From a virus: a stretch of DNA of 25,598 bases. The stretch spans positions 1 through 25,598 of the IMG/VR virus record IMGVR_UViG_3300008050_000279; one strand, 5' to 3'. How positions within the stretch are numbered: the first letter of the stretch is position 1; the number at the start of each line of letters is the position of its first letter. The position numbers were made by a program, and so were the translations under genes. Shown here piece by piece: positions 1-20,750 of this stretch. The notes beneath the pieces were generated by a model. It searched no databases, was not told the origin of the DNA, and was given only the letters and a program-made list of their open reading frames with translations.

Positions 1-3000
1 ATGCCTATACTTAGTAAACTAGAACCGGGTCAAGCTACGGACATTGCTTTAAGAACTGTTGCTGGTGGTCTGGTTCAAGGTATGGTAGCCCAAGGAATGA
101 GTGATGAAGAACTTCCATTAGAGGACCAAGTTTATAACTATATACTTGGTGGCTATTTCGGACTAAATGAATCTCCACTCCATTTAAGAATATCAAGACA
201 AGCTATTGCTGAAACATTTAAGAATCCTTCTTATAATAGAAAAGGAGTTCCTGACCCCGAGTTAAACCCTAAGTGGGATACTTGGACAGAACAAACACAG
301 AAGATAGTTAAGGAAGATTTTGCCCACGTTTTTGGTCACGGTGATGAGGCTAAGTTTGCAAATTTTCAAGTAATTAAACAGGCTATGGAGAATGAAGGCT
401 TTGTAGATGTTAAACAAATAGAAAAAGCATTAGTTGAAAAGTATCTTGAAGTTGATATAGACCCAGCAACTGGTGAACCATATAAAAAGGTTACTGAAGC
501 AGAGATAAAAGCAGTAAAAGATTCTATTAAAGACAATCCTAATAATGAGGAATATCAAGACCTTGATATGCACCTTAATGAAATAGGGAAGTTGCCCGGT
601 AGAATAGCCGGGAGTAATGGTTTTGTTGCTAGATATTTAGAGCCACGAATAAAAGACTTTGATACAGTTAAAAGACTTAAGGAATCTATTAAGGTTAATA
701 AGGCTTGGGACGCATTACACGAAATAAAGAATGGTGTCAGAGTCCCTAAAAAAGGTGCTATTGAAGAGATGAATCAATGGCTTAAAAATACTTATAAATT
801 AGATAAAATATCCGATAAAGAAACAGACTTCTGGAGAAACTGGGCTGAGCAAACCAGAAAGAAAAAGTTAGTTTTACAGGCTTATTATGTTGATGGTAAG
901 GTTGCATATATAAATGACGGCGTAAATGTAATTGGTAATAAAAAAGAGTTAGCATTTGAACCACCTACTATACAAAGTATTTTTGAAAACGTATTCAAGG
1001 TACGCAATAAAACAGAAGATGCTCCAAATTTCTATGTATTAGTAGACCACTTCGTAAGAAAAGGTAAAGAATATAAGTTAAATGATGTAATGGCTCTCCA
1101 ACAGCAACTGAATAAAGAAGCTGTAAAGTCTGGGGACCCTGATATGGCGGCTAGTGCTGAAGCTGTTATTAAAAGAATGAGAGCAAAAGTTTCAATGGAG
1201 CTAGAAAAGGATGGTTACTACTATGCTGGTGGTAGAGGCGATAAGAACGCTATGTACTTTGTACAAAAACATCCAGATTTAAATACTGGCAATAGACATA
1301 AGCAATTAAGAGAGATTAGAGAAGCTTTTAAAGATAATGGAGTTTCAGAAGAAGATTTTGACGCCCATATCAAAAGAGGTATTGATAAGTACAAGTTTAG
1401 ATTCAGAGGTATGAAGGAAGATGCTGAAAAGTACTACCTCGACAGTTTTATTAGTAATGCTTTTTATGAGGTCAATAATAATTTGGGTTCACAATACCCA
1501 ATAGAACAGATGGGAACTGGGTTGAGGAAAGTTCTGGGCAAAGGCTATATCAAAGGTGCTAAGGCTTATAATAAGAGGGCACAGATTTGGTTTAATTCAG
1601 GACTTTCCACAAACCCTGAGGTATCAGAATACTTTATGAATAAGTATTACGGTAGATACAGAAAAGAGTTAGGGTTAAAAGCAGGATTTGAGCCACTACC
1701 TTTAAGAGGTAAAGGCTTAATGAAAAAATTTAGAATGGCTATATGGGATGATACAATTCCCGGTCCTGAGAGTTTCAAATGGAAACGACCTAATATAGAA
1801 AGACCTGAGTCTTTTGATGGTGCTATTATTGCTTTGCCCGAATATATATACGGCTTAAATAAGGCGGCTGGATTAACAAACGAAGGTAATGTTAATAAAT
1901 CATTTATCGTGGCTCCTGATGCTAATTATGGGGCTTTATTGGGTAAGTATATGTTCTTCGAAGCATCTCCTAATATGGCAAAGGCTATGAGAGCAAGGGG
2001 TATACACGCATTGGCACCAAAATCTGCAATAAAGCAGATGGGCGATAGGCAATTTGCTCAAGTTAAAGTTCCGGGACAAAGTGATGTATTCACTTCTAAA
2101 ATGTTTAGAGACGAAGTTGCTAAAATGCCAATAGAATATGTGCCTCATACATTACAGAGAAGTAGAATTGGTGAAATATATGTACCTAAAGAAGCACAAG
2201 GTAGTGGGGTTGGTGAAAGATTTGTAAAGGCTTTAGAAAGATGGAGAAGATATAGAGGTGACCAGTTTATTGATATTGAAGCAATAGGTGGCAGAGAGTC
2301 TTTTGGTAGTAAAAATTTAGACAATGTAGAGTTCTGGAAAAAGATGGGTTATAAAGTAGCTCCAGAAAATCTACAAACAAAAAACGCTGAGATTCTTCCT
2401 GAGACTGCTCTAAATCCCGAGGCACGGGGCAAGAAAGTAATGAAGATTCGTATGTATAAAGAATTAAAACCCCGTGATAATGATTCATTTAGAATAGAAG
2501 GTGATACTTACGATATACAACAAAGGCACGTTAGGACCATACTTAGTGAAGTTACATCTAATCACGATATAGTAAATGCAAAGTGGGCTAAACAGTTATG
2601 GTCCACAATATCTCACTTTGGTCAGAATAAAACAGACCCTAAGATAGTAAAAGATATGGCTAATGAATTAATTGGTAAGGCTGTAAAGGGTGAGAAAGAA
2701 GCTAATCTTCAATGGGATGAACATTTAAAGAGTCCTAATGCAGTATCTGAAAGAAAGGTACTTGAGAATATAGATGTGGTATCACTTGATAGAGTTTTAA
2801 GTGCGGCGACTGATACCCATAATCAGGATTTTGCATCAAAAGTTTACGAAAGAATCTTAGGTAGAGCAGAAGCAATTAAACTTGAGTCTGCAAATGAAGC
2901 AGAGATTTCAAGAGAGCAGATGTTTGAATTAAGACAAGATATAACAGAATTTGAAAGCATCATTGATAGACTCCAAGAAATATATCCTAAAGGGAACTTA

Positions 3001-6000
3001 GGTTTTTGGATGCACAAATTTGCTAAGAATTACAGACAGTCTTCTGTACGAAATTATATAGTAGACAGGATTTCAAGACCAGTTATACAGAATGGTGGTA
3101 AGGCAAGAATGAGACCTTGGGACCAAGGAATGATATTTGATAAGAATATGAGTAGACTAAATACAGAACAGGATATATTCTTTTTAGATAACAACTGGAA
3201 ACAGAAAAGAATTTATGACCCGTTCTTTACTGGTGGCTCTGAAAAACTTGGCACTATCTGGAAGAACAGACAGTTAGGTGAAAAAGGTCCTTATAAAGAG
3301 AATTTAGAATTAGTAGACGGGATTCTTGAAGCATTAAATATGAGAGTTCCTATGGATTCTCAAAGTGGTGCCCATATTTTAAAGTTCCAAGGCTTTACTG
3401 GTATGAGAGGTAACGGAGTCTTACTTCACGGTAGAGCTATGGAAGCATTAGGAGGGGCTGACCTTGACGGTGATAAAGCCTTTATATTCTTTGGTGGTAG
3501 AGGTGGTGTTTTAAATAAGTGGAAATCTATTTATAGAGACCAAGTGAATGAGTTCGTAAAGGGAGAAGAAATGACTCCTGCAAAAACACAAGAGGCTAGG
3601 GATAAATTTGTTAAGAAAGATAAAGAAGTATCCGCTTTTGGTGACAATGCAATGTCTAAATTTGATTCTCATTGGAGAGGTCATATGTCTGAAGCCGCCG
3701 TTGATGGAAGAGACACTCTAAAGGGAGCTGTCACTACGAGACAAGCTTTATTATCTGCTTATGACTCTATTAGACTTGCTAATAAAGGGGTTCAATATGA
3801 AGGTCCTACAAGATATGTTAATAAAACACACGTTCCTATCATTATACAGGATGGTTCTTACTATTATCCAATAGAAATCCCAGGCTCTAAGAAGATTTGG
3901 TATATGAAACAAACACCTAAAGTAGCTAGTGGAGCTTTGCAAAGGTTTAAAGAGCTGTCAAGAGCCGCAATAAACTTAGGTGCTGACCCTATGGATGAAT
4001 CGGGTATCGTTCCTATGGCAAAGATAAAGGAAATTTTAACAGATTCCTTATTTAATTTTGATATACATCAAGGTATTAAGACTAAAAAGGGCGTTAAGTT
4101 TACAAGAAGTGACAAATACAACTCACGTTCGTACTATAAATTAGTTAATAAGAATAAAAAATGGGGATTACACGGGGCATACGGAAAAGTTAACAATGTT
4201 TTATATGGTAGAAATGTAGAATCTGGTAATAAATGGAGCCTTGGAGAAATTCAAGATGGTATAAACTCTATTAATTGGCTACCTAAAGAGAGTCAGAACA
4301 ATTTAATGAGCTTTCTTGCTAAGGAATATAGACAAATACCTTATGAAGATAATATTTTCAGGAGATTAAATAAAAAGAACCTAGAAGATTTATACAAATT
4401 CAATAGAGAGCATTTTAAAGACAACCCAGAGGTTGCAGAATTGTTTGAAAGAACATCTATGACGAGCCGTATGGGTAAAATGATGGACCATATAATCAGA
4501 GAACGTATATTTGACCAAGCATCTAGAGAGGCATTAGCAAAAAACCCACATAAATTCTGGGACTTATTCTCTCGTAATTGGCATCCGCAATTTGATGAGA
4601 CTGTAACTGGGAAGAGGTCAGAAATGGGTACTATTCCTTGGCACTTATATAAAAAGTTTAAGTATCAAGGTAAGAAAACTAGCTATCTTACTAGATTGCA
4701 ATATCTAGAGTATAAATTAAATCAAGCTGAGGACTTCTTAGTCAACGACCTTTCCGATATGGCGTCAATGAAGCATATATTAGGAGTTCGTGATAAACAC
4801 AATATACCAGATAAGGTATTTAAAAAGATTAATAAGATGGTTAATAAAGTCAAGGCATCGTCTTATTGGGTTAAAAAGAACAGAGACCAAGCTATAAAAG
4901 ACTTAAGAGAAGTAGATAACAATGAGACTGCTGAACAGTTAATCCGTGAACTTAATAAAAAAAATAAGCAAGGTGCTGGTGCTAATCAAGCTGATATAGA
5001 TAAGATGATTGTCCTTGATAAGAGACAGCTTTCAGCTAAGGCTGGTCAGCAAGAGCTTTATGATGCCCTAATGCTAGGTACTTTTCAAAGAACAGAATTA
5101 AATGCCCTTAAAGGTTTACTTAATACATCTAAAAATCTTAGTGCAAAATTATTAAGATTAAAAAATATATACCTTAAGCACGGACAAAATACATCCTTAC
5201 TAAGGCTCGGTTTTGGTTCTAAAAGTATAAAGGATTCTAATATCCGTAAGCACCTTGATGAATATAATAAGTTGTTTGAGATTATTAATAAACCTAATGG
5301 TAAGGAAGTAGAGCAAATACTTAAAGAGTCTACTAAGAATGAAAATGAAATTAATGAGTACAGAAATGAAATAGGTGAAGTTGTTGAAGATAGAATTATA
5401 GAAGCATCTGATTTGTCTCAAGCCGATAGATTGTATATGGACCAAATAGAACCTTTTAAAGGAATAACTGAAGGTAAGGTTAAGGACCCAGAGCTAAGGG
5501 AGATTTATCACAAGTTACAAGGACATTTAAAACACTATAACAATGCTACTACTAGAGAGTTAAGTGGGTTTTTTCGCTACTTATTTAAAAAGAATTTGAA
5601 CCAAGCTACAAAGTATGATTTAAAAGTCCTTGAAAGAGCATTTCAAGATATGAGAACCGGAAGTTGGTGGTCTAACTTTATGAGCTTTGTTAATGGTAAA
5701 TCAGAACTTCCTGATATTCAAAGAAGATATTGGAATATTTTTCCTGCCGCAGTAAATAGAGATATGATGAAAAATCCTCGCCTTATGAATTGGAAAAAAG
5801 ATGTTGCTCCTTATATGGATAGGTTTGGTAATTCTATTGTAGGTGAGGTTGTTAGACCTACTGCTTTGATTGGTGAGTTACAGAATTTTGCACACAAAAC
5901 ATCAGAATTTGCTATTCAGCAGAGCGAAGAAGAGACACAAAGATTAAGAGACGAGTTAGCTCCTTTGATAAAGTCCACAGAAGAAGGAGATATTCTACAT

Positions 6001-8469
6001 AAGATTGCTGTTGCTGTAAGAGAAAGAGGTATGGTCCACGCACTTGCAGAGCAAGAAGGTCAGTCATCTTTACTTTCGCATAAGCAGTTAAATTATATTA
6101 AGAACCTTGATTTAGTTAAAGCTGATATGGAAAAGTTTGGCAATAAACACTATGTTGTACAAACTAAAGAAGGGGCTGTCAAGATGACAGGTGAAGAGGT
6201 TTGGACTAAGATAAATGAAATATATACTAAGCAGAATGAGAAAATGGATAGGTGGATTAACGGTGATGTTGATTATTTAGAAAAAGAATGGTTCTCTCTT
6301 GCTCGTAATAAGTATGGAAAGATTACTTGGAGAGGTTTAGATAACTTAAGAAATAAGTTTGTTTCATTTAGTAATGAGGCTTTTAGAAAAGGTGAAAGAT
6401 ATGATATAGAGAAGTTTGGTGTCAATGGTATGCAAGAAATATCTAAACATATTATATTAAGTCTTACACCTAAGACTCGAGGAAAGAATGTAAGATTAAG
6501 AACTGAAAAACTCCTTAATCAAAGAATCAAAGATATAGGTCTTGGTTATTCAAGGACTGAATTATGGGACAAAGACGCTTATTTCCCGCACGTTTCTTTT
6601 GATAGAAAGAATGTAACTGACCAATTAATTAAAGGGTTAAAACATATCTTTGATGATAAGAAACTGACTAAATCAGAGAAGAAGAAATATGCTCAGAAGT
6701 TAGTTTATCAATCAAAAGCTATGACTGGTGACTGGGTTCATAAGAGTGCTTTAAGTGATAATTATGAATTAATGGAAGATATTTATTTAGGTCTTGCCAA
6801 CAAAGAAAGGATTAAGGACATACAAATCCTTAAGGGTGGTTTTAAAAAGGCTTATAGTCAGCATCAAAGAGATGCTCATCTATCAGGATGGGACACTACA
6901 CCTGAAGCATATGAATCTTATATGAAGAATTTGTCAGATACTTTTTATAAAGAGTCTATGCAAATGTTAAGTAGGGTTCATATTAAAAAGTTCCATAGAA
7001 ATTTCTTAAGAAAAAATCCTAAAGAAAGTGCTTTAGCTAAAAGATGGGGGAATTTCTTCCAACTATTTACACAGTCTGCTATGGGTTACCCTATTGATAT
7101 ACCTGAAGCTGTAATGAATGACCCTAAGATGAAGATAAAAGGTACTCCTTATAAGTGGTTTGCTGATAATAGAGCAAGGAATAGAATTGATTCTATAAGA
7201 AAGACTTTAGGTGTTACTAGTAAAGCCCTGAAATCATACGATTTAGAACAAGCAGATATTGATGCTCTTTCTGGCGTTCATCAAAGTACTCTACAATATT
7301 GGGGTGGCTTAGAAGCTAAATGGCAAATGGCATCACTACTTGCTCACCCTAAAAGTTCAATAACAAATTTATATGGTGGTACTATACATACTGCGATAAG
7401 TGCCGGTGTAGATAATCTTAAGAAGGCAAGGGATATAGACTGGTTAAGAGCTAATATTAATCCTAATTGGAAAAGTATGAAAGATGTTGATAGGTGGGTT
7501 GTCGACTTAGGTATAATAGAGGAATTTCTAATTCACGAAGCTGGATTAAACAGACAGCTAAAAGGTAAAAGATTTGAAGAATTTCTTGCTGAAGCAAAAA
7601 AAAGCATAAGCAATGACCCTGCTTACGCTGATACTTCGCTTAATCAGTTAAGAAGAAAATACAAAATCACTGATGGTATATGGGAAAAAGCATCGTGGTT
7701 TATGAGAAAGCCTGAAAGAATACTTCGTAGAGATGCGTTTATGTCTCACTTAATACAGGCTAAAGAACAATTTGGTGGTGCAATCAAACAATTTGACCAC
7801 CCGTTTTTAATTGAGATGGGTAAACGAGGTGTAAAGGGGACACAGTTCTTATATTCTGCTCCTTTTAGACCTATGTGGACCAATAGTGTATTGGGTAGGG
7901 TGTTTTCTCGTTTTCAATTATGGAGTTGGAACTCAGTGCGTTTTAGAAATGACACTATTCGTGAACTTAGGATAAGGGGCTATCAACCCGGTACCCCAGC
8001 ATTTGAGAGAGCAAAAAGATTAGCAATAGCTGATTTATTTATGCTTTCAATGGCTTCAATGTTCCAGTATAGTTTATTCGACAACGCACTTCCAGCCCCT
8101 TGGAATTGGTTCCAAGATACTGCTAATTGGTTAATGGGAGATGAAAGCGAAAGGGAGAAGGCTTTCTATGGGAATGCTCTGGGTCCATTATCAATAGCAC
8201 AGCCACCTATAGCAAGATTTATTCAACCTACTTTTGAAGGTCTTGTAAATGGGAAATGGGATAAATTAGCTGATTACTATGGCTGGACGGCACTTCCTTT
8301 TGGAAGATTTATGAAAGATGTTATTGGAAAAGGCGGGATGTTAGAGAATCCATTCTATTCTGTAGAAAAGATGACCGGTTTTCCGTTGATAGCTGGTAGT
8401 AGGTATATACAAAAAGCAAAGGAAAATGAAGAAGAATCTTTTGGATTATTTAAGCCTAGTAATACTTAG
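1..8469 (+). CDS. Giant phage protein with GNAT-like and RNA polymerase DPBB-like segments
   Basis: A single uninterrupted frame of 2822 residues. The ATG is the first base of the window, so an upstream extension cannot be excluded. Around residues 700-790 there is a GNAT acetyltransferase-like segment: Q733-G-S-G-V-G738 matches the acetyl-CoA loop (Q/RxxGxG/A), and F778-W-K-K-M-G-Y784 matches the usual late GNAT strand. Around residues 1114-1160, R1115-V-P1117 is followed by G-G-A-D1154-L-D1156-G-D1158, which parallels the RAP...NADFDGD catalytic loop of multisubunit RNA polymerase beta-prime and the DxDGD loop of the single-chain polymerases of crAss-like phages and QDE-1. The rest is charged and largely helical; residues about 2670-2695 are hydrophobic. 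Size and place beside late genes suggest a virion protein ejected with the DNA, possibly a virion RNA polymerase. The catalytic roles are inferred from short motifs; a second polymerase barrel was not identified. Confidence 0.85.
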   Translation: MPILSKLEPGQATDIALRTVAGGLVQGMVAQGMSDEELPLEDQVYNYILGGYFGLNESPLHLRISRQAIAETFKNPSYNRKGVPDPELNPKWDTWTEQTQKIVKEDFAHVFGHGDEAKFANFQVIKQAMENEGFVDVKQIEKALVEKYLEVDIDPATGEPYKKVTEAEIKAVKDSIKDNPNNEEYQDLDMHLNEIGKLPGRIAGSNGFVARYLEPRIKDFDTVKRLKESIKVNKAWDALHEIKNGVRVPKKGAIEEMNQWLKNTYKLDKISDKETDFWRNWAEQTRKKKLVLQAYYVDGKVAYINDGVNVIGNKKELAFEPPTIQSIFENVFKVRNKTEDAPNFYVLVDHFVRKGKEYKLNDVMALQQQLNKEAVKSGDPDMAASAEAVIKRMRAKVSMELEKDGYYYAGGRGDKNAMYFVQKHPDLNTGNRHKQLREIREAFKDNGVSEEDFDAHIKRGIDKYKFRFRGMKEDAEKYYLDSFISNAFYEVNNNLGSQYPIEQMGTGLRKVLGKGYIKGAKAYNKRAQIWFNSGLSTNPEVSEYFMNKYYGRYRKELGLKAGFEPLPLRGKGLMKKFRMAIWDDTIPGPESFKWKRPNIERPESFDGAIIALPEYIYGLNKAAGLTNEGNVNKSFIVAPDANYGALLGKYMFFEASPNMAKAMRARGIHALAPKSAIKQMGDRQFAQVKVPGQSDVFTSKMFRDEVAKMPIEYVPHTLQRSRIGEIYVPKEAQGSGVGERFVKALERWRRYRGDQFIDIEAIGGRESFGSKNLDNVEFWKKMGYKVAPENLQTKNAEILPETALNPEARGKKVMKIRMYKELKPRDNDSFRIEGDTYDIQQRHVRTILSEVTSNHDIVNAKWAKQLWSTISHFGQNKTDPKIVKDMANELIGKAVKGEKEANLQWDEHLKSPNAVSERKVLENIDVVSLDRVLSAATDTHNQDFASKVYERILGRAEAIKLESANEAEISREQMFELRQDITEFESIIDRLQEIYPKGNLGFWMHKFAKNYRQSSVRNYIVDRISRPVIQNGGKARMRPWDQGMIFDKNMSRLNTEQDIFFLDNNWKQKRIYDPFFTGGSEKLGTIWKNRQLGEKGPYKENLELVDGILEALNMRVPMDSQSGAHILKFQGFTGMRGNGVLLHGRAMEALGGADLDGDKAFIFFGGRGGVLNKWKSIYRDQVNEFVKGEEMTPAKTQEARDKFVKKDKEVSAFGDNAMSKFDSHWRGHMSEAAVDGRDTLKGAVTTRQALLSAYDSIRLANKGVQYEGPTRYVNKTHVPIIIQDGSYYYPIEIPGSKKIWYMKQTPKVASGALQRFKELSRAAINLGADPMDESGIVPMAKIKEILTDSLFNFDIHQGIKTKKGVKFTRSDKYNSRSYYKLVNKNKKWGLHGAYGKVNNVLYGRNVESGNKWSLGEIQDGINSINWLPKESQNNLMSFLAKEYRQIPYEDNIFRRLNKKNLEDLYKFNREHFKDNPEVAELFERTSMTSRMGKMMDHIIRERIFDQASREALAKNPHKFWDLFSRNWHPQFDETVTGKRSEMGTIPWHLYKKFKYQGKKTSYLTRLQYLEYKLNQAEDFLVNDLSDMASMKHILGVRDKHNIPDKVFKKINKMVNKVKASSYWVKKNRDQAIKDLREVDNNETAEQLIRELNKKNKQGAGANQADIDKMIVLDKRQLSAKAGQQELYDALMLGTFQRTELNALKGLLNTSKNLSAKLLRLKNIYLKHGQNTSLLRLGFGSKSIKDSNIRKHLDEYNKLFEIINKPNGKEVEQILKESTKNENEINEYRNEIGEVVEDRIIEASDLSQADRLYMDQIEPFKGITEGKVKDPELREIYHKLQGHLKHYNNATTRELSGFFRYLFKKNLNQATKYDLKVLERAFQDMRTGSWWSNFMSFVNGKSELPDIQRRYWNIFPAAVNRDMMKNPRLMNWKKDVAPYMDRFGNSIVGEVVRPTALIGELQNFAHKTSEFAIQQSEEETQRLRDELAPLIKSTEEGDILHKIAVAVRERGMVHALAEQEGQSSLLSHKQLNYIKNLDLVKADMEKFGNKHYVVQTKEGAVKMTGEEVWTKINEIYTKQNEKMDRWINGDVDYLEKEWFSLARNKYGKITWRGLDNLRNKFVSFSNEAFRKGERYDIEKFGVNGMQEISKHIILSLTPKTRGKNVRLRTEKLLNQRIKDIGLGYSRTELWDKDAYFPHVSFDRKNVTDQLIKGLKHIFDDKKLTKSEKKKYAQKLVYQSKAMTGDWVHKSALSDNYELMEDIYLGLANKERIKDIQILKGGFKKAYSQHQRDAHLSGWDTTPEAYESYMKNLSDTFYKESMQMLSRVHIKKFHRNFLRKNPKESALAKRWGNFFQLFTQSAMGYPIDIPEAVMNDPKMKIKGTPYKWFADNRARNRIDSIRKTLGVTSKALKSYDLEQADIDALSGVHQSTLQYWGGLEAKWQMASLLAHPKSSITNLYGGTIHTAISAGVDNLKKARDIDWLRANINPNWKSMKDVDRWVVDLGIIEEFLIHEAGLNRQLKGKRFEEFLAEAKKSISNDPAYADTSLNQLRRKYKITDGIWEKASWFMRKPERILRRDAFMSHLIQAKEQFGGAIKQFDHPFLIEMGKRGVKGTQFLYSAPFRPMWTNSVLGRVFSRFQLWSWNSVRFRNDTIRELRIRGYQPGTPAFERAKRLAIADLFMLSMASMFQYSLFDNALPAPWNWFQDTANWLMGDESEREKAFYGNALGPLSIAQPPIARFIQPTFEGLVNGKWDKLADYYGWTALPFGRFMKDVIGKGGMLENPFYSVEKMTGFPLIAGSRYIQKAKENEEESFGLFKPSNT

Positions 8470-8652: not shown

Positions 8653-8847
8653 TCAATAATCTGTGGCATATCTACCCATAGCTATATAAAACAGCTCAGG
8701 CGTTAACCTTTTTAGGTTGCCTTCTTTACATCGTTTAGCCATTCGTTTTACAACTTGAGCTAATTCATATTCAATGCCTTCCATACTACCGGCACCTAAT
8801 TGGATGCCTTCGTCTTTGAAGGCTTTCTTTATCTCACCTTTTGTCAT
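8653..8847 (-). CDS. Small helical protein, possible histone-fold or DNA-binding
   Basis: A 64-residue protein starting at MTKGEIKK. This ATG has an AGAGGT ribosome binding site 8 bases upstream; the frame stays open to a GTG at 8889, but that start has no such site. Three helices can be predicted: a short one around residues 3-12, a long amphipathic one around 18-42 that ends basic (KRMAKRCKEGNLKR), and a short one around 44-54 (TPELFYIAMGRY). Short-long-short helices with a basic loop before the third is the plan of archaeal and bacterial histones, and the KRLTPELFYIA segment resembles the histone RKTI..EDI.LA segment. This is a fold guess, not a family match. The start overlaps the stop of the upstream zinc-finger gene by 14 bases, so the two are probably translated together. 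It is the last gene of this minus-strand pair. Confidence 0.55.
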   Translation of the reverse strand: MTKGEIKKAFKDEGIQLGAGSMEGIEYELAQVVKRMAKRCKEGNLKRLTPELFYIAMGRYATDY

Positions 8848-9007
8848 TTCGTTTACCTCTTGCTTTAACAAGTGAACGGCATCGTCCACAATTTTTGTTC
8901 ATCTTAAAATATTGAATACCCCAAAACTTCCCGCATTTACAACGGATATCTCTTTCGAGTTTCTTTTGTTCTACTTTCTTCCAGTGATAAGGATGACTTT
9001 TTTGCAT
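8834..9007 (-). CDS. Short basic zinc-finger protein
   Basis: A 57-codon gene with a strong AAGGAG ribosome binding site before its ATG. The product is very basic and has two cysteine pairs, C23-K-C25 and C40-G-R-C43, which could bind one zinc ion as a small treble-clef or ribbon finger. Basic tails flank the finger, which suggests nucleic-acid binding. It overlaps the following small gene by 14 bases. Its ribosome binding site and leader lie against the first stem of the structured region to the right (9028-9855), so the gene may be transcribed from a promoter inside or beyond that region. Not recognised as a known phage family. Confidence 0.6.
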   Translation of the reverse strand: MQKSHPYHWKKVEQKKLERDIRCKCGKFWGIQYFKMNKNCGRCRSLVKARGKRNDKR

Positions 9008-9027
9008 TGTTTTTTACTCCTTAATTA

Positions 9028-9855
9028 AATACAGGGTCCTCCTACTATCTTGTCAATGGTGAGGGAATCGTGTTAAGAGCCTTATACACCTCTTACACTT
9101 GTAGATGAATGTCCGTGTATTGCCACTCATCTTATCCTGTGACGTAAACCTCTTTATTGACCATCATACTTCGGTCAGACCCTGTATTATGTTCAAAACA
9201 TTGAAGTGAGTGGTAGCTACTATGTCGACCTTCACTACCCCTCGTATCTGCGTCCAGTTTGTAGATAATTTGTATTTCCCGACAGTTGCAGTTCACGGAA
9301 AAGCCGTTTCTCTACTCAGGGTAAGTATCACCTTAACTTAGAGCATATCTTCTGTTATGCTACTCACTTCAAAACTTATGGGGATTGATGCCGCACCAAT
9401 TATCGGCAACTTTTAAGAGATACACGTGTAACGATTAACCAGTTTAATGTTATATCTCAGGATAATGAAATCCCCAATGATATGGATACCCTACAGATTT
9501 TCACTGCACTTACCTTATGTGGACCAACCCATTGGCAAAAGGTACCCAACAATTTTTGAGAGGTTCGCTAGATGTATTAGTAGGAATGTGTTTATACTCA
9601 CGTTTTATAGCAGACTTCAACTGCTTCCATACCTCTCAATAAAAAGGCGTAAATGTTTACTACCCATTTGAATGACACTTCAATCGAAGATTTCATCGTG
9701 TCGCCCAGTGGTGTTCTGGGACACCTACGCCTAATTTAAATCTAAGACAGGAGCAGTCAAACCCAGTAGCGAGGGAAAAGGACCCTTCTACTTCAAAGAC
9801 TGCCCCTATCAATTTATTAGGGTAGCTCACTCAACGCCAACCGAGTGATTTTTAT
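9028..9855 (+). ncRNA. Candidate giant structured RNA (GOLLD/ROOL-like size and setting)
   Basis: About 830 bases with no convincing gene but a chain of nested inverted repeats. Long-range stems: 9028-9038 with 9178-9188 (11 bp); 9201-9210 with 9363-9372 (10 bp); 9556-9564 with 9631-9639 (9 bp); 9645-9651 with 9726-9732 (7 bp); 9753-9758 with 9798-9803 (6 bp). Hairpins inside or between them include 9070-9098, 9342-9361, 9389-9408, 9511-9544, 9610-9624, one in the 9696-9722 area (CCCAG/CTGGG and GTGT/ACAC), 9765-9792 and 9804-9822. The chain ends in a 6-bp hairpin followed by TTTTTATT, and the 9771-9775/9783-9787 stem contains a G-T pair; both favour transcription of the plus strand. GOLLD RNAs are about 800 nt, ornate and often phage-borne, and ROOL is a similar class. 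Membership was not tested. Confidence 0.65.
9827..9855 (+). terminator. Intrinsic terminator-like hairpin ending the structured RNA
   Basis: TCACTC at 9827-9832 pairs perfectly with GAGTGA at 9843-9848 across a 10-base loop and is followed at once by TTTTTATT. The stem is short at 6 bp, but the U-run is good. It gives the likely 3' end and strand of the structured RNA. Confidence 0.5.
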
Positions 9856-9974
9856 TCATTTGTCAGTCCTGTTTCTATTTTTGATATTAATAACTCTAAG
9901 TAATTTCTTACTATCCTTGAGTACATAAAATCTCAGAGACAACATAGTCTCAATCAACAGTGACGCTACCCCAA
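9856..9974. other. Gap at the end of the long minus-strand operon
   Basis: No ORF was seen in these 119 bases. A 5-bp inverted repeat (GAGAC at 9936-9940, GTCTC at 9947-9951) followed on the minus strand by a T-rich stretch could be a weak terminator for the minus-strand operon. Nothing else stands out. Confidence 0.3.
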
Positions 9975-10403
9975 TTAATCACAGTTACTACCTTCTATAC
10001 ATTTAGAAGGACCATCACGATGTACTGAAATTCTCTTATCGTCTTCTTCATTCCATTTACAGCTTCGCTTAATATTATTAATAAGTTCTAATGTATTACT
10101 CGCAACTTGTACTTGATTTTCTCTGTACATTTCTTCGTGATACATATGTAAACCCTTAAGAATGAGACTGATTTCTTCTACTCCTATTTTATAGGTATTC
10201 TTTTTCTGATTTTCGTCTCTTTCGTTTTTTACTTCAAGCAATACTGCTCCTAGGTAAACTGTTAAATCTAATATTTCTTCTACTGATTCTTTTAGATTGT
10301 CCCTGTTCCCCTCACCTTTTAATGGTATGTCTTGTCCGTATTTTTTCTGTCCTAACTCAAGGCGTTCTTTGACTAATTCTAATACTTTTTCATTAGTCTT
10401 CAT
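9975..10403 (-). CDS. MazG-like nucleotide pyrophosphohydrolase
   Basis: A 142-residue protein. I chose the ATG at 10403 because it has an AAGGAG site 9 bases upstream and overlaps the previous gene by only 11 bases; a longer frame runs to 10460. Residues 4-60 resemble phage MazG-like all-alpha NTP pyrophosphohydrolases: a leading helix (VLELVKERLELGQKKYGQD), then E-S-V-E-E-I-L-D-L-T-V-Y-L-G, the ExxED-type helix that binds magnesium in this superfamily. Such enzymes hydrolyse dNTPs or other nucleotides to monophosphates and can shift the nucleotide pool or alarmone levels for replication. The last 60 residues, with three cysteines (C118, C138, C144 counted approximately), are unassigned. It is the last gene of the minus-strand block. 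Confidence 0.6.
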   Translation of the reverse strand: MKTNEKVLELVKERLELGQKKYGQDIPLKGEGNRDNLKESVEEILDLTVYLGAVLLEVKNERDENQKKNTYKIGVEEISLILKGLHMYHEEMYRENQVQVASNTLELINNIKRSCKWNEEDDKRISVHRDGPSKCIEGSNCD

Positions 10404-10719
10404 AATTTGAGACTCCTTCATACAATTCATTTCTGTATTGGTCGTTTTCAAATTTTTCATAACTAAATTCTGGTGGAGTTACCATTGTATTCTTTTGACT
10501 TAACTTATCCTTAAAGTATCTCCAAGGAGTTAGCACGTTATTAAAGAACAATGTTAGATTGTTCGTTCCCCCAAATAACATTCCGTCATCTTGTGCCGCA
10601 CTATATCCGTGATGATAGCCCCGTCTATAATTCATTTCCAAATCTCTAAAATGTTCTTTTTGTTTTTTGGTTAATGGTTTTGATAGTTCTTCTATTGTAA
10701 ATACTTTTACTTTACTCAT
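10393..10719 (-). CDS. Unrecognised 108-residue phage protein
   Basis: The start has a GGGAGG ribosome binding site and overlaps the stop of the HNH gene in a TAATG arrangement, so translation is probably coupled. Residues 14-45 are charged and helical, with a Tyr/His/Gly-rich run (RRGYHHGYSAAQDD) that recalls short helical phage proteins of unknown role. The middle is aromatic (LTLFFNNVLTPWRYF) and the tail is acidic. There is no signal peptide or clear catalytic motif, and I cannot assign a function. It sits between a nuclease and a nucleotide-pool enzyme in the early block. Confidence 0.6.
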   Translation of the reverse strand: MSKVKVFTIEELSKPLTKKQKEHFRDLEMNYRRGYHHGYSAAQDDGMLFGGTNNLTLFFNNVLTPWRYFKDKLSQKNTMVTPPEFSYEKFENDQYRNELYEGVSNYED

Positions 10720-14696: not shown

Positions 14697-15559
14697 TCGC
14701 TTTTCTCCTTATACTGTTTTATTTCAGTTACAATACTCTCATAATCAAATGGTAGTACTTTCTGACTTAATGGTTTTAAGCGTGAGCCTACAACCCTTTC
14801 ATCATATGCCTCAAATGAAACATAGTATTTACCATCATCTTTCTGAGCAGTAGAATAACCTATTACATCGGCTTTGGCGGCTAAACTATAGCCTAACCCT
14901 CGTGGTAACTCTGGACTTAGTTGAGCTTTACCATCCGTGACTGTTGTAGTCTTGGAATGCGAAACTAGTACTAAGTTACCACCTTTCTTTTTAATGAGAT
15001 TCTGGAACCTCTTAATGATGTCAACATTCTTCCGTCTGGCTTTACCCCAGTCGGCTCCCCATTGACCTTCACCCATTGCAGAGATTCCTAACTCATTCAA
15101 TACAGTTTCTTCTACCCACTCGTTCACTTGACCAAGTGTATCAATACAAACTGTATCGTACGGTAAGTTGTCCCACTCTTTTTCCAACCATTGATAAGCC
15201 TCTATCAGTGAATACACTGGCATTGGCTTACCTAGGTCTTCTCCAGAACGATAGACGAATCCTCGTTCTAAGGGTGGAATCATTTCAAACTGTGCTATAC
15301 CTTTTTGCGTGACTTGCTTACCATCTTTCATCACAGGTCTCATTGGGGCGTTAAGAGAAGAAATAGTTACTACATTTGCATTATCAACAAATTCAGCTCC
15401 TAAATCAGTATCTAACATTAAGACACCTTCTTCTCCCTTACCGCTCCAACTAGCACAGGCTGTCGTTTTGCCCGTCTTGGGCTGTCCGATAAAGAAATAT
15501 GTCAAACCAGTTGGTAAACCTTCTGACCAATCAGTAGACACTTTTCTGACTTCTATCAT
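14693..15559 (-). CDS. Sak4-like RecA-fold ATPase (phage recombinase, AAA_24 type)
   Basis: A 288-residue protein with an AGGAG site, overlapping the E1-like stop by four bases (ATGA). Walker A is G25-Q-P-K-T-G-K31-T-T, the next strand ends L-M-L-D-T-D, and Walker B is Y-D-T-V-C-I-D140-T. V-L-V-S-H-S-K at about residues 197-203 is the usual sensor-like strand of this group. The length and layout match Sak4 single-strand annealing or RecA-like recombinases of phages, which work with an SSB in recombination-dependent replication and repair. The next gene is the probable SSB and the one after is the primase-helicase. Its tight coupling to the ubiquitin-like E1 gene ties the conjugation genes to replication. 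Confidence 0.85.
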   Translation of the reverse strand: MIEVRKVSTDWSEGLPTGLTYFFIGQPKTGKTTACASWSGKGEEGVLMLDTDLGAEFVDNANVVTISSLNAPMRPVMKDGKQVTQKGIAQFEMIPPLERGFVYRSGEDLGKPMPVYSLIEAYQWLEKEWDNLPYDTVCIDTLGQVNEWVEETVLNELGISAMGEGQWGADWGKARRKNVDIIKRFQNLIKKKGGNLVLVSHSKTTTVTDGKAQLSPELPRGLGYSLAAKADVIGYSTAQKDDGKYYVSFEAYDERVVGSRLKPLSQKVLPFDYESIVTEIKQYKEKSE

Positions 15560-16284
15560 ACAGACTCCTGTTCTATTAACCCTATATCGGGTCTTATTAA
15601 TGTTCCAAATTGTACTGAATTTGGACTCAAGCAGGACTGAATATAGTCATAATACCCTAGATTTGCAACAAGATTATACACTTGAGCAACTGCTAGAGAC
15701 GCAATATGCTGAGCCGCAAACACAGTATGTTTCTGTGAACACGGGGCTTTTGGTACACTATCCGTAGGAATCCAAGTCTTCATATACTCTGAGTCTAAAT
15801 AACTCTCTGTTTCCTTGGCTCTGTAGGATTCTGTTACCAGTTCTGTTGTAGTGGCACCCATACGGGCATCAATAAACCAGTCTCTCTTTTGATTCTCTTG
15901 ATTATACCAAGATTCGAAAGCGGCTTTTCTTGATTCCATATCGTCTGTGCATACAATCATTCTTGCGTGAGGCTTTTCGTTTTGGTCCCAGCGTCTCATC
16001 TTATAGATAAACTCTTGGTCCGTTCCATCATACATACTGTGTAGTACTGATGCCGCCTCAGCTTTAGGTCTATCAACCATATTTGTTGGATACGCTGTAC
16101 TACTCAAGTTATGAGTTGACATTGTATCTGGGTCATAGACATACATTGACTTATAACCCATTATAGTTAGACCTTGTATTATAAAGGAGCCAATTCCACC
16201 AGCTCCTATAATAATAACATCACTTAGTTTACTTTGGTCAATGAGGTCTTTATTCCTCAAGAACCTACTATTGGCTTTTTCCAT
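15556..16284 (-). CDS. E1-like ubiquitin-activating enzyme (ThiF/MoeB/E1 superfamily)
   Basis: A 242-residue Rossmann-fold adenylating enzyme. It shows V-I-I-I-G27-A-G-G-I-G32-S (ATP loop), Y-D51-P-D53...H-N59-L-S-S, R72-P-K74-A-E-A and C112-T-D114-D-M-E-S-R119, which line up with the D, N, R, K and D residues that bind ATP and magnesium in ThiF and E1 enzymes. C182, in A-P-C-S-Q-K-H-T, is the best candidate for the thiol that takes the activated Ubl; there is no separate Cys domain. It would adenylate the C-terminal glycine of a Ubl such as the product of 19589-19795 and pass it to an E2-like partner. GGAGG precedes the start, which lies inside the preceding membrane-protein gene (17-base overlap). 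The Sak4-like gene follows through an ATGA overlap. Confidence 0.85.
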   Translation of the reverse strand: MEKANSRFLRNKDLIDQSKLSDVIIIGAGGIGSFIIQGLTIMGYKSMYVYDPDTMSTHNLSSTAYPTNMVDRPKAEAASVLHSMYDGTDQEFIYKMRRWDQNEKPHARMIVCTDDMESRKAAFESWYNQENQKRDWFIDARMGATTTELVTESYRAKETESYLDSEYMKTWIPTDSVPKAPCSQKHTVFAAQHIASLAVAQVYNLVANLGYYDYIQSCLSPNSVQFGTLIRPDIGLIEQESV

Positions 16285-16411
16285 TTGTCCTCCAGTCAGT
16301 AAATGCTGATATGATTAATACAAAGAAGAACGACCCTATCCCCATTAATAGTACGCCACAGCCTACTAAGAATAGATTTATTGACCATTCCCATAAATCC
16401 AGTATAATCAT
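16268..16411 (-). CDS. One-helix membrane protein within the Ubl operon
   Basis: A 47-codon gene whose ATG overlaps the stop of the coiled-coil gene (ATGA) and whose end overlaps the E1 start by 17 bases. Residues about 11-37 form one long hydrophobic helix rich in Gly, Leu and Phe, preceded by an acidic aromatic start (LDLWEWS) and followed by a short basic tail (DWRTNGKSQ). It would be a single-pass inner-membrane protein. No family was recognised. Being translated between the coiled-coil protein and E1, it may anchor or assist the conjugation enzymes, or it may simply be an unrelated small gene carried in the operon. Confidence 0.6.
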   Translation of the reverse strand: MIILDLWEWSINLFLVGCGVLLMGIGSFFFVLIISAFTDWRTNGKSQ

Positions 16412-16839
16412 ACCTTCATCTCTACGAATTGATTTAACATCTCATAAGCTTCCTGCTCAGAACCGAACATAGCTTGGTCCTTAATTCTGGTAGCTTCTTC
16501 ATTAATTAACTGACGCTTTTCGCTGATTTTATCATTTTCAGCCGCCAATTCAGCGTTAACTTGTTTTTCATAGACTTCGAAACCTTCTATTAGGTCTCTA
16601 ACATCTACGGTACCTAGATTACTTCCAGACCAACCGTTTCTTGCTCTATCTAAGCTTTTATCTATCATACTTTTCATCTTATCAAAGTCAGTATACTGAA
16701 TATCTCCACTCTTTAATCCTTGCTTAGCGATAATACATTCTGAACTTGATTGGTTGTCTTGTAACTTTCTTACTTTTTGACTTGCTACTTCATCTATTCT
16801 TTTAATGAAGTACTTTTTTTGCGGTATAGTCATACTCAT
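16408..16839 (-). CDS. Unrecognised coiled-coil protein between JAB and E1 genes
   Basis: A 143-residue protein with AAGGAG 9 bases before the ATG. It is mostly helical: charged heptads run from residues 5-30 and again from about 85-125 (VYEKQVNAELAAENDKISEK...). A glycine-containing break lies near residues 68-76 (NGWSGSNLG). There is one cysteine (C35) and no catalytic motif. It lies between the JAB protease and the E1-like gene, after a 152-base spacer that is itself structured. It could be an adaptor, a target, or an E3-like scaffold of the conjugation system; this is speculation from position only. Confidence 0.65.
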   Translation of the reverse strand: MSMTIPQKKYFIKRIDEVASQKVRKLQDNQSSSECIIAKQGLKSGDIQYTDFDKMKSMIDKSLDRARNGWSGSNLGTVDVRDLIEGFEVYEKQVNAELAAENDKISEKRQLINEEATRIKDQAMFGSEQEAYEMLNQFVEMKV

Positions 16840-16859
16840 TTCACATCACTCCTTAATTA

Positions 16860-16987
16860 AAGGGGGACTGGTCCGGCTTTATAAGCAGACCGAATCCCAG
16901 TTATCGGAGCTTTAACAACTCCTGATAGGATTCTTTTCCTCTTTCACGTACTCGGTTTTATTATGTACTGGCTTCACAGCCCCCCTT
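16860..16987 (-). ncRNA. Structured multi-stem element between JAB and coiled-coil genes
   Basis: The spacer is closed by a 7-bp stem (16860-16866 with 16981-16987, AAGGGGG/CCCCCTT) and contains three hairpins: 16870-16891 (GGTC and GCTT arms, 8 bp with small bulges), 16902-16927 (8 bp with one bulged base) and 16948-16968 (GTAC/GTAC, weak). It therefore folds like a cloverleaf of about 128 nt. It directly precedes the AAGGAG of the coiled-coil gene on the minus strand. It could be a 5' regulatory RNA, an RNA-processing site or an independent small RNA. I saw no tRNA signature. Confidence 0.5.
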
Positions 16988-16991
16988 AGGT

Positions 16992-17909
16992 TTATTTTGT
17001 TGTTGATAACTGGTCCACATATAAATGCGGGTCAAGGTCAGGACTTAACTTCCTTACTTCTTCACCAAAGTCTGCTTCTGTTAGTTCATTTGACTCTAGT
17101 TTATTGTAAAGTTCAGCTAATTTGTCCTGCATATCCGGTTCGAAACTATCATTGTATGCTTTTGTTACAGCATCCTCAATATCCGGAATATCTTCAATGT
17201 CCTTTCCTTTAATGTACCTAGTTGTTGTCTTGTCTGATTCCACTTTATCCATACCCCCGAACATATTATGTTGACCATAATAGCCGCCGTGAGTATAGCC
17301 TCTGAAACCACCACTGTAACCACCATAGGTTGTCGTAACCTCTTTCTTCTTATTCTCTTCAATAAGGTCTGCCTCTTTTCTCCATAATTTATCAGATTTG
17401 TTTCTGAACATAGATTTGACATCACCTTCTATGTAGTTTGGCAATCCAAATTGGTCCCGATATGAAACTGCTGTTACAAACGGGTCTTTTGCAGATGCCA
17501 CTACTGTTGAAAAGAATAGTCCTTGTTCAGGTGCTTGTTCCAGCAGAGCCTTTTCATCGGTCCCACTAAAGAATGCACCCATTGTATGGTGACTATGTAT
17601 TAATCCCAAATGACACTTTAAGAGCTTTGGATGTTTCTTGTAAGTTGCGGGTAATATCTCACCCAGCTTCTCACCGTCCATTTCCGTCTCTGTATGGCTA
17701 CCTAAATCAATAGGTGTAAAGTGTTCAAGTGTTACTTCAAGTGGAAATCCCCTATCGCTTGATTTAACAATTCTGTACCACGCTGGTCCAGACCATTCGG
17801 TATTGTTAAAACGTCTCAATAGATAGTTGATTTTCTCCACTATCAACGAAGGTATTGATACGGTCAGTTCCGTTAATACCTGCTCTTCTGATTGCTCTTC
17901 CTTCTTCAT
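16992..17909 (-). CDS. JAB/JAMM metalloprotease (deubiquitinase-like)
   Basis: A 305-residue protein with AAGGAG 8 bases before its ATG. The N-terminal 150 residues form a JAB/MPN domain with the complete zinc motif: H105-S-H107, seven residues, S115-G-T-D118. E38 (N-T-E-W-S-G) is a candidate catalytic Glu. JAB enzymes cleave after the C-terminal glycine of ubiquitin-like proteins, either to mature a precursor or to remove it from targets. Here the neighbouring Ubl ends Gly-Cys, so removing one residue would expose the glycine. Residues about 195-225 are Gly/Tyr-rich (YGGYSGGFRGYTHGGYYGQ), a flexible linker, followed by an acidic helical tail. The start lies 104 bases inside the E2-like gene in another frame, an unusually long overlap. 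Confidence 0.88.
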   Translation of the reverse strand: MKKEEQSEEQVLTELTVSIPSLIVEKINYLLRRFNNTEWSGPAWYRIVKSSDRGFPLEVTLEHFTPIDLGSHTETEMDGEKLGEILPATYKKHPKLLKCHLGLIHSHHTMGAFFSGTDEKALLEQAPEQGLFFSTVVASAKDPFVTAVSYRDQFGLPNYIEGDVKSMFRNKSDKLWRKEADLIEENKKKEVTTTYGGYSGGFRGYTHGGYYGQHNMFGGMDKVESDKTTTRYIKGKDIEDIPDIEDAVTKAYNDSFEPDMQDKLAELYNKLESNELTEADFGEEVRKLSPDLDPHLYVDQLSTTK

Positions 17910-19533
17910 AGTCGATACTCCTTATCGCTTCTTTTAGTTGTTTATTGATTTTACTGTAGACCATAGACCTGATATATGCTTTCCATTTGTGCATAACATA
18001 TTCATATTCTTCAGCCTGTAGTATTTTATCACAAGTGTCGATTGCAATAGCTATTCTTTTGCCTATAGCAATCCTTAGCTCTTGGTTTTCTTGTTCATCT
18101 CGATTGATACCTTCTGAGTAATGCTTGAACAATGCCCAGATTTGTTTACAATCAAATACCTCATCAAATGACCATTGAACGCCATCAATATCAGGTAAAT
18201 GCTTATCAGTATCCTTTTCAAGAACAAGTTTAACAAAGAATGCTAAGCTCCGTAATACATAGAGATAGCAACTCTCGTGATACAGGTAATCGTGACTACT
18301 TCGTCCAGAGTTTACATAAACTCTTTCATAATATTCATCATCACTCAACACTCCTTGATATTTCTTAAATACCCTATCTGTATTGTAAAAGCCTCTGCGA
18401 ATATCATTGAATTGGCTAATCGAAATTGGCGGTCCATCACTTCTTAATCCGGCGTCATCTATATTTCTTAACCTTCTGAACTTAGTATTAGCCGTTTCTA
18501 AAGAAGATAACATTGCTCCACCAGAACCAAACTCTGTTATGTTAAGGTTTTCTTCCGTGAAACTAGCTCTACAATCGTCCTTGTCATTTACTATCGCTTC
18601 ATCAATCAAGGTTTGATAATTTACACTCTTCAATAATTTTGAAGCACTATGTAGTCCACCTATCTCTCGCACCGTTTGATTCAGATTAATAGTAATTTGA
18701 CAAGCGTTTGCTATGTGTAATTCCTCTGTATCCTGATACTTACCAGTCAACAGGTCGTGTAACTTCCAACATATGAAAAGGTCTTCCTTGGACCATCCAA
18801 GTTTCAAACACTTTTGATATGTAGGGTGACTAACCATACCCTGTTCCCAGTAGCTTCGTCTAAAGCTACCTTGCATTGACACTCGAGCTAACTCATTCAT
18901 AACGTGTTTCAATAGCAAATACTGTTTAAAATCACCGGTCTTATGAATCTCATAAGTTTGGTAGACTCTATTGATGTCCCAATAGCAATCTCTCCTAGTC
19001 CAGTTATTTAAAAACGAATTGGCTACTTGTACCATCGTTAATAGATTGTTTGTTTGCAAAGACATACTCCAAGGACCACTGAAATCCCCTAAGCACGGAT
19101 TACCATCACTACTAACGTGTGGATGTATGGCTATCCTTTGTTCTTTTATTAGTCTCTTATAAAACAAACTATCATCTCCCCCTGTGCAAAATCTATCAGC
19201 AAGACTGCTGAATAGTGCATAAGGCTTCTCCATTTCATCCGAAAAATCAGTAAAGATACTTCCATTACTTTGATTACTCGTAAATGCAAGAGACATCATC
19301 GGTAGCTTATACCTTCGGCTACCTTTCAAGACTGGATTCTTCAGTTTAATCCTGAAGTCACCAACCCATCTTCCACTGGCTCTTCTCATAATTGGAGAAT
19401 GAAAATGCAATTTCTTTGAGAACATCTCATACAGGTTAATTGCATCATCCTTTTTAAGGGTCTGCTCATTGGTCCTAGCATTGTGCATCAACCAACGAGG
19501 TACTAAGTATCTTAACTTACTTACTTCATTCAT
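17806..19533 (-). CDS. E2-like ubiquitin-conjugating domain with long C-terminal extension
   Basis: A 575-residue protein with GGGAGT before its ATG. Residues about 40-190 read as an E2/UBC-like domain: strands around 58-66 and 78-98, then H137-P-H-V-S-S-D-G-N-P-C147-L-G-D-F with W155, followed by a helix (NNLLTMVQVANSFLNNW). This matches the E2 pattern HPN...G..CL......W.......L..I..LL, with C147 as the thioester cysteine. The roughly 385 residues after it are helical and unrecognised, including a Cys/His/Tyr-rich stretch around 400-425 (SSHDYLYHESCYLYVLRS). Ordinary E2s are 150-200 residues, so this is a fusion; the extension could select targets or act as an E3. It follows the Ubl gene by 55 bases and overlaps the JAB gene by 104. 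Confidence 0.75.
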   Translation of the reverse strand: MNEVSKLRYLVPRWLMHNARTNEQTLKKDDAINLYEMFSKKLHFHSPIMRRASGRWVGDFRIKLKNPVLKGSRRYKLPMMSLAFTSNQSNGSIFTDFSDEMEKPYALFSSLADRFCTGGDDSLFYKRLIKEQRIAIHPHVSSDGNPCLGDFSGPWSMSLQTNNLLTMVQVANSFLNNWTRRDCYWDINRVYQTYEIHKTGDFKQYLLLKHVMNELARVSMQGSFRRSYWEQGMVSHPTYQKCLKLGWSKEDLFICWKLHDLLTGKYQDTEELHIANACQITINLNQTVREIGGLHSASKLLKSVNYQTLIDEAIVNDKDDCRASFTEENLNITEFGSGGAMLSSLETANTKFRRLRNIDDAGLRSDGPPISISQFNDIRRGFYNTDRVFKKYQGVLSDDEYYERVYVNSGRSSHDYLYHESCYLYVLRSLAFFVKLVLEKDTDKHLPDIDGVQWSFDEVFDCKQIWALFKHYSEGINRDEQENQELRIAIGKRIAIAIDTCDKILQAEEYEYVMHKWKAYIRSMVYSKINKQLKEAIRSIDYEEGRAIRRAGINGTDRINTFVDSGENQLSIETF

Positions 19534-19552
19534 ACTTGACTCCCTAATTATG

Positions 19553-19578
19553 AAAGGGCTGAGTTTCCCCAGCCCCTT
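19553..19578 (-). terminator. Hairpin between Ubl and E2-like genes, possible attenuator
   Basis: On the minus strand a 9-bp stem (AAGGGGCTG with CAGCCCTTT, one G-T pair, 8-base loop) lies between the Ubl stop at 19589 and the E2-like start at 19533. Only three T bases follow immediately, so termination would be partial. Such a hairpin could keep the small Ubl more abundant than the E2-like enzyme, or protect the Ubl message from decay. Confidence 0.5.
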
Positions 19579-19588
19579 CGGTTACCCG

Positions 19589-19795
19589 TTAACAACCAGA
19601 AGTTACCTTGTTGGTTGTAAAAGACAGAAAGTCGTCATCACGTAGTGACACACTTGCATCTGCCTTCTTTGAGTTTACAGATATTGTAACATTGTCGAGT
19701 GACATTTCTAGTTGTCTTGCCGCATCGGCAGGGTTAGAAACATTCTCTAGTGTTTTAGGAACACCACCTATTGTCTGTACTAAGACCTTTGCCAT
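19589..19795 (-). CDS. Ubiquitin-like beta-grasp protein ending Ser-Gly-Cys
   Basis: A 68-residue protein with TAGGAG 7 bases before its ATG. Its pattern fits a ThiS/MoaD/ubiquitin beta-grasp fold: strand 3-9 (KVLVQTI), a second strand, helix around 21-31 (NPADAARQLEM), strand 35-40 (NVTISV), then L51-R-D-D-D-F-L-S-F-T, which matches the L.DGD.V.F segment before the C-terminal tail of ThiS-like proteins. The tail ends T-S-G67-C68. Ubls are activated on a C-terminal glycine, and many are made as precursors trimmed by a protease, so trimming of C68 by the JAB enzyme is a natural idea. The following genes encode E2-like, JAB and E1-like proteins, which supports the call strongly. A hairpin follows the stop. 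Confidence 0.75.
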   Translation of the reverse strand: MAKVLVQTIGGVPKTLENVSNPADAARQLEMSLDNVTISVNSKKADASVSLRDDDFLSFTTNKVTSGC

Positions 19796-20640: not shown

Positions 20641-20663
20641 TTCTTAGTCCTCCTTAATAGGAC

Positions 20664-20750
20664 AAGGCGACAGCACCGCCGGTTTATACTCCGGTGCAAT
20701 ACAAGATTTGAGGTCGAGCCATCTGTTACTTGCAAAGCAACTGTCGCCTT
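20664..20750. ncRNA. 87-base three-way-junction element
   Basis: A perfect 10-bp closing stem (AAGGCGACAG at 20664-20673 with CTGTCGCCTT at 20741-20750) encloses a 6-bp hairpin overlapping its inner end (20673-20678 with 20692-20697) and a second arm around 20702-20735 built from CAAG/CTTG and AGAT/ATCT. It lies between the 52-residue gene and the zinc-finger gene, in the leader of the latter. Size is close to a tRNA, but the acceptor length and the lack of a T-loop motif argue against one. It may be a small RNA or leader regulator; the strand is not decided. Confidence 0.5.

Follow-up and report, generated by a model that had tools for sequence, protein, structure and literature searches.

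The window analysed here, itself a virus record of 25,598 bases (IMGVR_UViG_3300008050_000279), raises the question of what is encoded by a long stretch of phage DNA that contains no convincing gene. Between positions 9028 and 9855 only short, mechanically called ORFs are present, and the sequence folds better than its shuffled versions on both strands (z -4.4 on the plus and -3.8 on the minus strand; 0 of 20 shuffles were as good on either). An earlier note had described this stretch as gene-free and densely folded, which these values bear out, and had proposed that it specifies one giant structured RNA of about 830 nt, read from the plus strand and akin to the GOLLD and ROOL classes. Its view of the region as structured non-coding RNA was upheld by covariation in homologues, the test that the note itself had named. 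The structured unit, however, spans positions 9032-9973 and reaches to within one base of the stop codon of a 161-aa gene. In relatives its elements are found alone or combined differently, which argues against one giant RNA. The explanation that we favour, with a probability of roughly 45%, is that the array is composed of exchangeable cassettes of small, independently folding RNAs, carried in phage early operons, that act as separate accessory RNAs.

The proposed kinship with GOLLD or ROOL found no counterpart in RNA catalogues. At the Rfam gathering threshold no family, these two included, matched either strand of the window, and at a relaxed threshold (up to E 10, over positions 8900-9980) only four weak matches to eukaryotic or plant-virus families appeared, all far below the cut-offs and none of them credible. 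Rfam searches of the relatives likewise gave no credible match; none of the RNA families found here is a catalogued (Rfam) RNA. ARAGORN detected no tRNA or tmRNA gene in the window, and among the scanned array-bearing loci a tRNA gene was identified only in L197 (one tRNA-Met). No prior description of such arrays was found in the part of the open-access literature searched, and an earlier description may exist.

Anatomy and strand of the array

The array lies on the minus strand, which is also the strand of both flanking genes, and comprises eight stem-closed elements in the order 5'-I-G-F-E-D-C-B-A-3' (Table 1). Pairs within a single element account for 261 of the 277 predicted, pairing between elements is negligible, and the folding energies of the separate elements sum to -251 kcal/mol, versus -269 kcal/mol for the whole. 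The five long-range stems reported previously do exist, but they are the closing stems of separate elements and not contacts within one RNA. Similarly, the hairpin and U-run seen at the plus-strand end correspond, on the minus strand, to the GGUUGGCGU hairpin conserved in element I. The terminator scan called no site at this hairpin, whose loop is larger than the limit of the scan. That simple scan, which called one site, elsewhere, placed no terminator after any element, and none was evident by eye.

Table 1. Predicted RNA elements of the window and the genes flanking the array.
Feature	Position	Strand	Characteristics
Element I	9817-9973	-	First in the array, 1 nt past the stop of the 161-aa gene; P1 AUUGGGGUAGC/GCUACCCUAAU; conserved GACAAAUG; hairpin with loop GGUUGGCGU; z -4.4
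Element G	9743-9809	-	Closing stem (about 12 bp) enclosing UUUGAAGUAGAAGGGUCC...GGUUU; z -3.9
Element F	9645-9733	- (presumed from neighbours)	Closing stem AGGCGUA.../...UACGCCU; z -3.6
Element E	9557-9643	-	Closing stem UUGAGAGGU/ACCUCUCAA; near-identical copy elsewhere
Element D	9485-9549	-	Closing stem UGGGUACC/GGUAUCCA; weak fold (z -0.9), placed by analogy
Element C	9374-9481	- (presumed)	Closing stem UGGGGAUU/AAUCCCCA; z -1.7 on minus, -2.9 on plus
Element B	9203-9372	-	P1 UGAAGUGAGU/ACUCACUUCA; conserved hairpin CCG-UGAACUGCAACUGU-CGG and GGACGCAGAU
Element A	9024-9192 (stem-closed core 9032-9187)	-	Alignment, covariation, CM
Element Q	16846-16986	-	P1 AAGGGGGGCUG/CAGUCCCCCUU; early operon, upstream of a 143-aa gene; z -3.4
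Element R	20662-20750	-	P1 AGGCGACAG/CUGUCGCCU; between two minus-strand genes; z -3.4
161-aa protein	9975-10460	-	Upstream of the array; phrog_11184
57-aa Cys-rich protein	8834-9007	-	Start about 18 nt past element A

The single-sequence folds of elements B, C, D and E are weak (z -0.9 to -1.7 on the minus strand), and the case for B and E comes from their homologues. Elements C, D, F and R were placed by fold and position only, and searches of relatives revealed no homologue of any of the four. Element B has a homologue in contig L119 (positions 4238-4425, minus strand; 66% identity, nhmmer 1e-8), in which both sides of P1 are changed (AUGAGUGUAAAC/GUUUACACUCAU) and which occupies a different intergenic gap, about 3 kb from that contig's own copy of A. 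Element G shares 88% identity over 74 nt with L066/L067 (L067:7312-7386, plus strand), where it immediately precedes a gene. Scans for exact patterns of B and G recovered only the window's phage and relatives already known. Family I comprises 27 sequences, that of the window included, with differing complementary P1 arms, while element Q shows weak similarity to sequences in L080 (5e-5) and others. The L119 homologue of B is part of another array without genes, about 840 nt long (L119:4208-5045), which contains further stem-closed units; a relative of one of them, a unit of 280 nt, lies close to a tRNA-Met gene in L197 (10365-10605).

The strand of the array was determined on element A. In the minus-strand reading, 286 of the 288 cells of the first eight P1 pairs (36 sequences) are paired, whereas swapping partners between sequences left 172 paired on average and 213 at most. 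Over 11 positions of P1 this reading contains 15 G-U and two A-C cells and, because every G-U there would become an A-C mismatch on the opposite strand, the asymmetry rules out the plus-strand reading favoured in the earlier note. The fold of element A points the same way (z -4.4 on the minus versus -1.1 on the plus strand). A previous strand comparison of our own agreed, but in it the two orientations had been aligned and folded separately and their registers differed; the P1 count from a single alignment is the fair test.

Wobble cells of family I number 11 G-U versus four A-C. In family M they show no clear asymmetry (six G-U versus three A-C in P1, three versus five in P2), so the strand of this family is taken from its constant orientation with neighbouring elements and genes. 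Elements B, C and E fold slightly better on the plus strand. For B and E the orientation of neighbouring elements and the coding strand is kept in both known places, and the minus strand is the probable one for C, judged from its neighbours. Families with homologues lie on the coding strand wherever this was checked. We are highly confident in the anatomy and strand of the array.

The 161-aa protein encoded upstream of the array has no significant Pfam match and appears MazG-like by eye. The 57-aa Cys-rich protein on the other side has an 80% identical homologue at the same place in L063. Among the nearest genes, only that of an HNH protein gave a Pfam match at E 1e-3. Elsewhere in the window, a 2,822-aa open reading frame with homologues in relatives occupies positions 1-8469 of the plus strand. 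On the minus strand, positions 15556-19795 bring together genes for a ThiF/E1-like protein (PF00899), a JAB-like protein (Prok-JAB, E 1e-4, under the cut-off) and two proteins with no significant Pfam match, of 575 aa (with a HPHVSSDGNPCLGDF stretch) and 68 aa, and the group resembles a phage ubiquitin-type conjugation operon. A long conserved stretch of 669-702 nt, found upstream of a Sak4-like gene in L036, L067, L080 and L088, was called a gap by our crude ORF rule, which may simply have overlooked the ThiF gene there.

Element A and the distribution of the families among phages

Element A is built of P1, internal loops CUGACCGAAGUAUGA / GAUAGUAGGAGG, P2 and a variable apical part. In 36 aligned copies both internal loops are nearly invariant and the stems covary strongly. 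These sequences were collected by a scan for one loop, which gave 78 stretches, many of them unrelated coding sequence, and by a looser scan; spurious pattern matches, which made up most of those from a further pattern scan, were dropped by eye or by demanding the second loop and P1. The first scan fixed one loop exactly; the other was left free, yet it is almost as constant. In this alignment 96.7% of the cells pair, 12 of the 21 consensus pairs show changes on both sides, and the covariation score is 0.486, versus 0.151 for shuffles and at most 0.114 for slid partners. Both covariation controls are biased towards the structure, since the alignment tested is also the one that yielded it and the shuffle test is inflated by related sequences; the difference is large even so. 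None of 500 shuffles reached any of five measures, and the CM match is 88 bits. The loops fit a loop-E-type (GAA/AGUA) motif between CC/GG pairs, which would be their putative three-dimensional arrangement.

Element A was present as a single copy in 15 of the 20 records checked and absent from five, an absence that is not proven as the records are linear and possibly fragments. Its identity as a dispersed repeat was rejected, since it is single-copy and the weak second match in one record sits inside a reading frame. It precedes at least 15 unrelated downstream gene families, counted as BLASTP clusters of short ORFs, among which some relatives could be missed. A CAUA-UAUG pseudoknot considered for A was abandoned, as it shows no covariation at the upstream bases, and four pattern matches in bacterial or archaeal genomes were judged on inspection to be due to chance.

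Relatives of the locus were fetched via the flanking proteins (11 loci with the 161-aa protein and 80 with the HNH protein); record 3300025103_000513 (L002/L013/L092), a near-identical copy of the window's phage, was excluded from all counts. Profile matches were limited to E values of 1e-4 to 0.02, P1 was demanded for A, and one loop was fixed in the scans. Families and thresholds were settled during the work; combinations are reported only from matches within these limits, on which the counts of distinct copies depend.

By blastn, the intergenic region contains strong islands at 9146-9193 (many relatives) and 9744-9816 (L066/L067, 88%), and element A or G is present in relatives without most of the remaining array. 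Five of the eight array elements (I, G, E, B and A) have homologues in other uncultured viral contigs, in other combinations and at other sites. The gap adjoining the 161-aa gene holds, in different relatives, I, I+A, I+K, I+K+A, I+K+N, I+N, I+J+A, I+M or I+M+A, and X+M+A, X+A+Y, A+M+X+Y, M+Y+A, M+K and M+E were found in other gaps. An element scored as absent may be a divergent, unrecognised copy, and L016, with A alone, may carry such an I.

Gain and loss affect an element as a whole. The alignment of L004 with L010 runs uninterrupted through I and A except for J, which is cleanly present in one and absent from the other, and three loci with 97-98% identical HNH genes carry I+J+A (L015), I+K+A (L018) and A with no recognised I (L016). 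Positions 9553-9640 of the window (element E) are 98.9% identical over 88 nt to L234, L241 and L244. Both ends of the match coincide with the closing stem of E, which in these contigs directly follows an M element, and no further DNA is shared with the window at E 1e-3; the terminases of the respective phages are 29% identical where both are present. Since the three contigs are near-identical around M and E, they represent one transfer event.

Family M was recovered in 20 contigs by way of an exact 31-base core, with P1 and P2 varying between copies, and K looks like a three-way junction with possible loop-junction pairing. Family X (L127:2037-2084, L142:8226-8274 and others) and the 3' part of Y appear by eye to be H-type pseudoknots (AAGUGU..GGCAGU..ACACUU..ACUGCC). 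In a phage from a different lineage, a gap of 883 nt without genes (L247:11180-12062) contains M, Y and further, unassigned folded sequence. Searches of cultured phages recovered neither a homologue of A, I or M nor a close relative as judged by HNH, helicase or terminase.

Candidate roles of the elements

The array sits between two genes of the minus-strand (early, replication-type) set. As separate accessory RNAs, its elements would be transcribed together with the early genes, and would then either be released by processing at the A/U-rich linkers or work while still part of the transcript. Each might act separately by means of its invariant loops, the most likely mode being the binding of a protein or RNA of the host or its defences, and could serve as a decoy, an inhibitor or an antitoxin-like part, with a repertoire that would vary between phages as anti-defence or tRNA sets do. 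The function of the elements is probably independent of the neighbouring gene. A role in counter-defence or host takeover, suggested by the accessory, permuted pattern and by phage RNA precedents, is a more tentative proposal. Several observations speak against accessory RNAs: homologues of C, D, F and R were not found in relatives, no close relative was found among cultured phages, the elements match no known defence target, and A often sits only 11-19 nt ahead of a start codon, where a cis element would be expected.

The last of these leads to the main rival, according to which the elements act in cis to protect, process or insulate the adjacent polycistronic early mRNA (as a 5' stabiliser, nuclease stop or ribosome spacer). 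They are located on the coding strand between genes, and Q and R are similarly placed in the window. The distance from the end of element A to the next start codon is usually 11-19 nt, and in several phages 4-21 nt separate its beginning from the previous stop. A cis function nevertheless fits poorly with eight different elements in a row that serve no extra gene, with the near-invariant loops retained by every family as its own, with a single copy of A per genome, and with some relatives in which the same gene junction lacks elements. We regard it as a possible but doubtful explanation.

The compact size of the elements (70-170 nt), their closure by P1 and their invariant internal loops with free helices are typical of aptamers, and K, with its apparent three-way junction, adds to this resemblance. 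Riboswitches for metabolites are unlikely all the same: no terminator was called after the elements by the simple scan or is evident by eye, P1 does not include the downstream Shine-Dalgarno region (as read by eye from the sequence after A), different elements stand in tandem before one gene, and no downstream gene is preferred, the families that follow A being mutually unrelated. Self-cleaving ribozymes that cut the polycistronic transcript, which the invariant cores, the compact multi-stem folds and the pseudoknot-like units (X, part of Y) between genes might suggest, are quite unlikely as well, given that no Rfam ribozyme family is matched, that several different designs would be required and that no cleavage site is evident.

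One giant GOLLD/ROOL-like RNA would agree with the length of near 940 nt, the phage setting and the dense folding, but is highly improbable in view of the missing Rfam match, the near absence of inter-element pairing, the single and permuted occurrence of the elements elsewhere and the independent movement of E. Chance folding or decayed coding sequence, to which the plus-strand 74-aa ORF at 9447-9671 and other short ORFs might point, is refuted for A and I and of negligible probability overall, as the covariation of A exceeds that of all shuffles and an indel breaks the ORF in 99% identical copies of E.

If the elements are indeed separate accessory RNAs, phages would exchange folded RNAs as modular cargo, like small accessory genes, and other long phage regions without genes that have been taken for "giant RNAs" would have to be looked at again as possible arrays. 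Permuted arrays would make the use by phages of RNA parts, instead of proteins, on their hosts directly testable. Families A, I, M, K and Y have conserved loops between variable stems and no Rfam entry, and are thus ready for structure and partner searches. More speculatively, uncultured marine phages (marine being the sample types that we take the IMG/VR names to denote) might draw on a common stock of numerous small RNA families not described before, arranged in tandem stem-closed cassettes and shuffled between unrelated phages. Such an RNA-based accessory arsenal would be the RNA counterpart of anti-defence gene islands.

Comparison with known systems

GOLLD and ROOL are single RNAs that form homo-multimeric cages and are often encoded near tRNA islands in phages; GOLLD, often over 800 nt long, has a universally conserved 3' region (PMC12286853). 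The array shares with them the character of a large, ornate, non-coding phage RNA region whose function is not known (PMC12286853). It differs in being composed of separate elements of 65-170 nt that are permuted between phages, with homologues carrying subsets, and in having neither an Rfam match nor a tRNA in the window, although tRNA proximity is often true of these classes and not strictly defining.

Racr are small phage RNAs that block host defence, mimicking CRISPR repeats (PMC10651486). Like them, the elements described here are small phage RNAs carried as accessory units, but they are larger and structurally diverse. Type III toxin-antitoxin RNAs (ToxI, CptI; PMC5086642, PMC8860590) also consist of tandem folded units in one transcript, which in those systems is cut to protein-binding monomers, and their pseudoknot units resemble X and part of Y. 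However, ToxI-type arrays repeat one unit, whereas the units here belong to different families. ToxI-type arrays also adjoin their toxin gene, while beside this array none was recognised among the Pfam matches of the nearest genes at E 1e-3. Phage tRNA arrays (PMC5966550) offer a further parallel, as tandem small structured RNAs whose content varies between relatives; no element of the window is a tRNA, and each family has its own fold and its own conserved loops.
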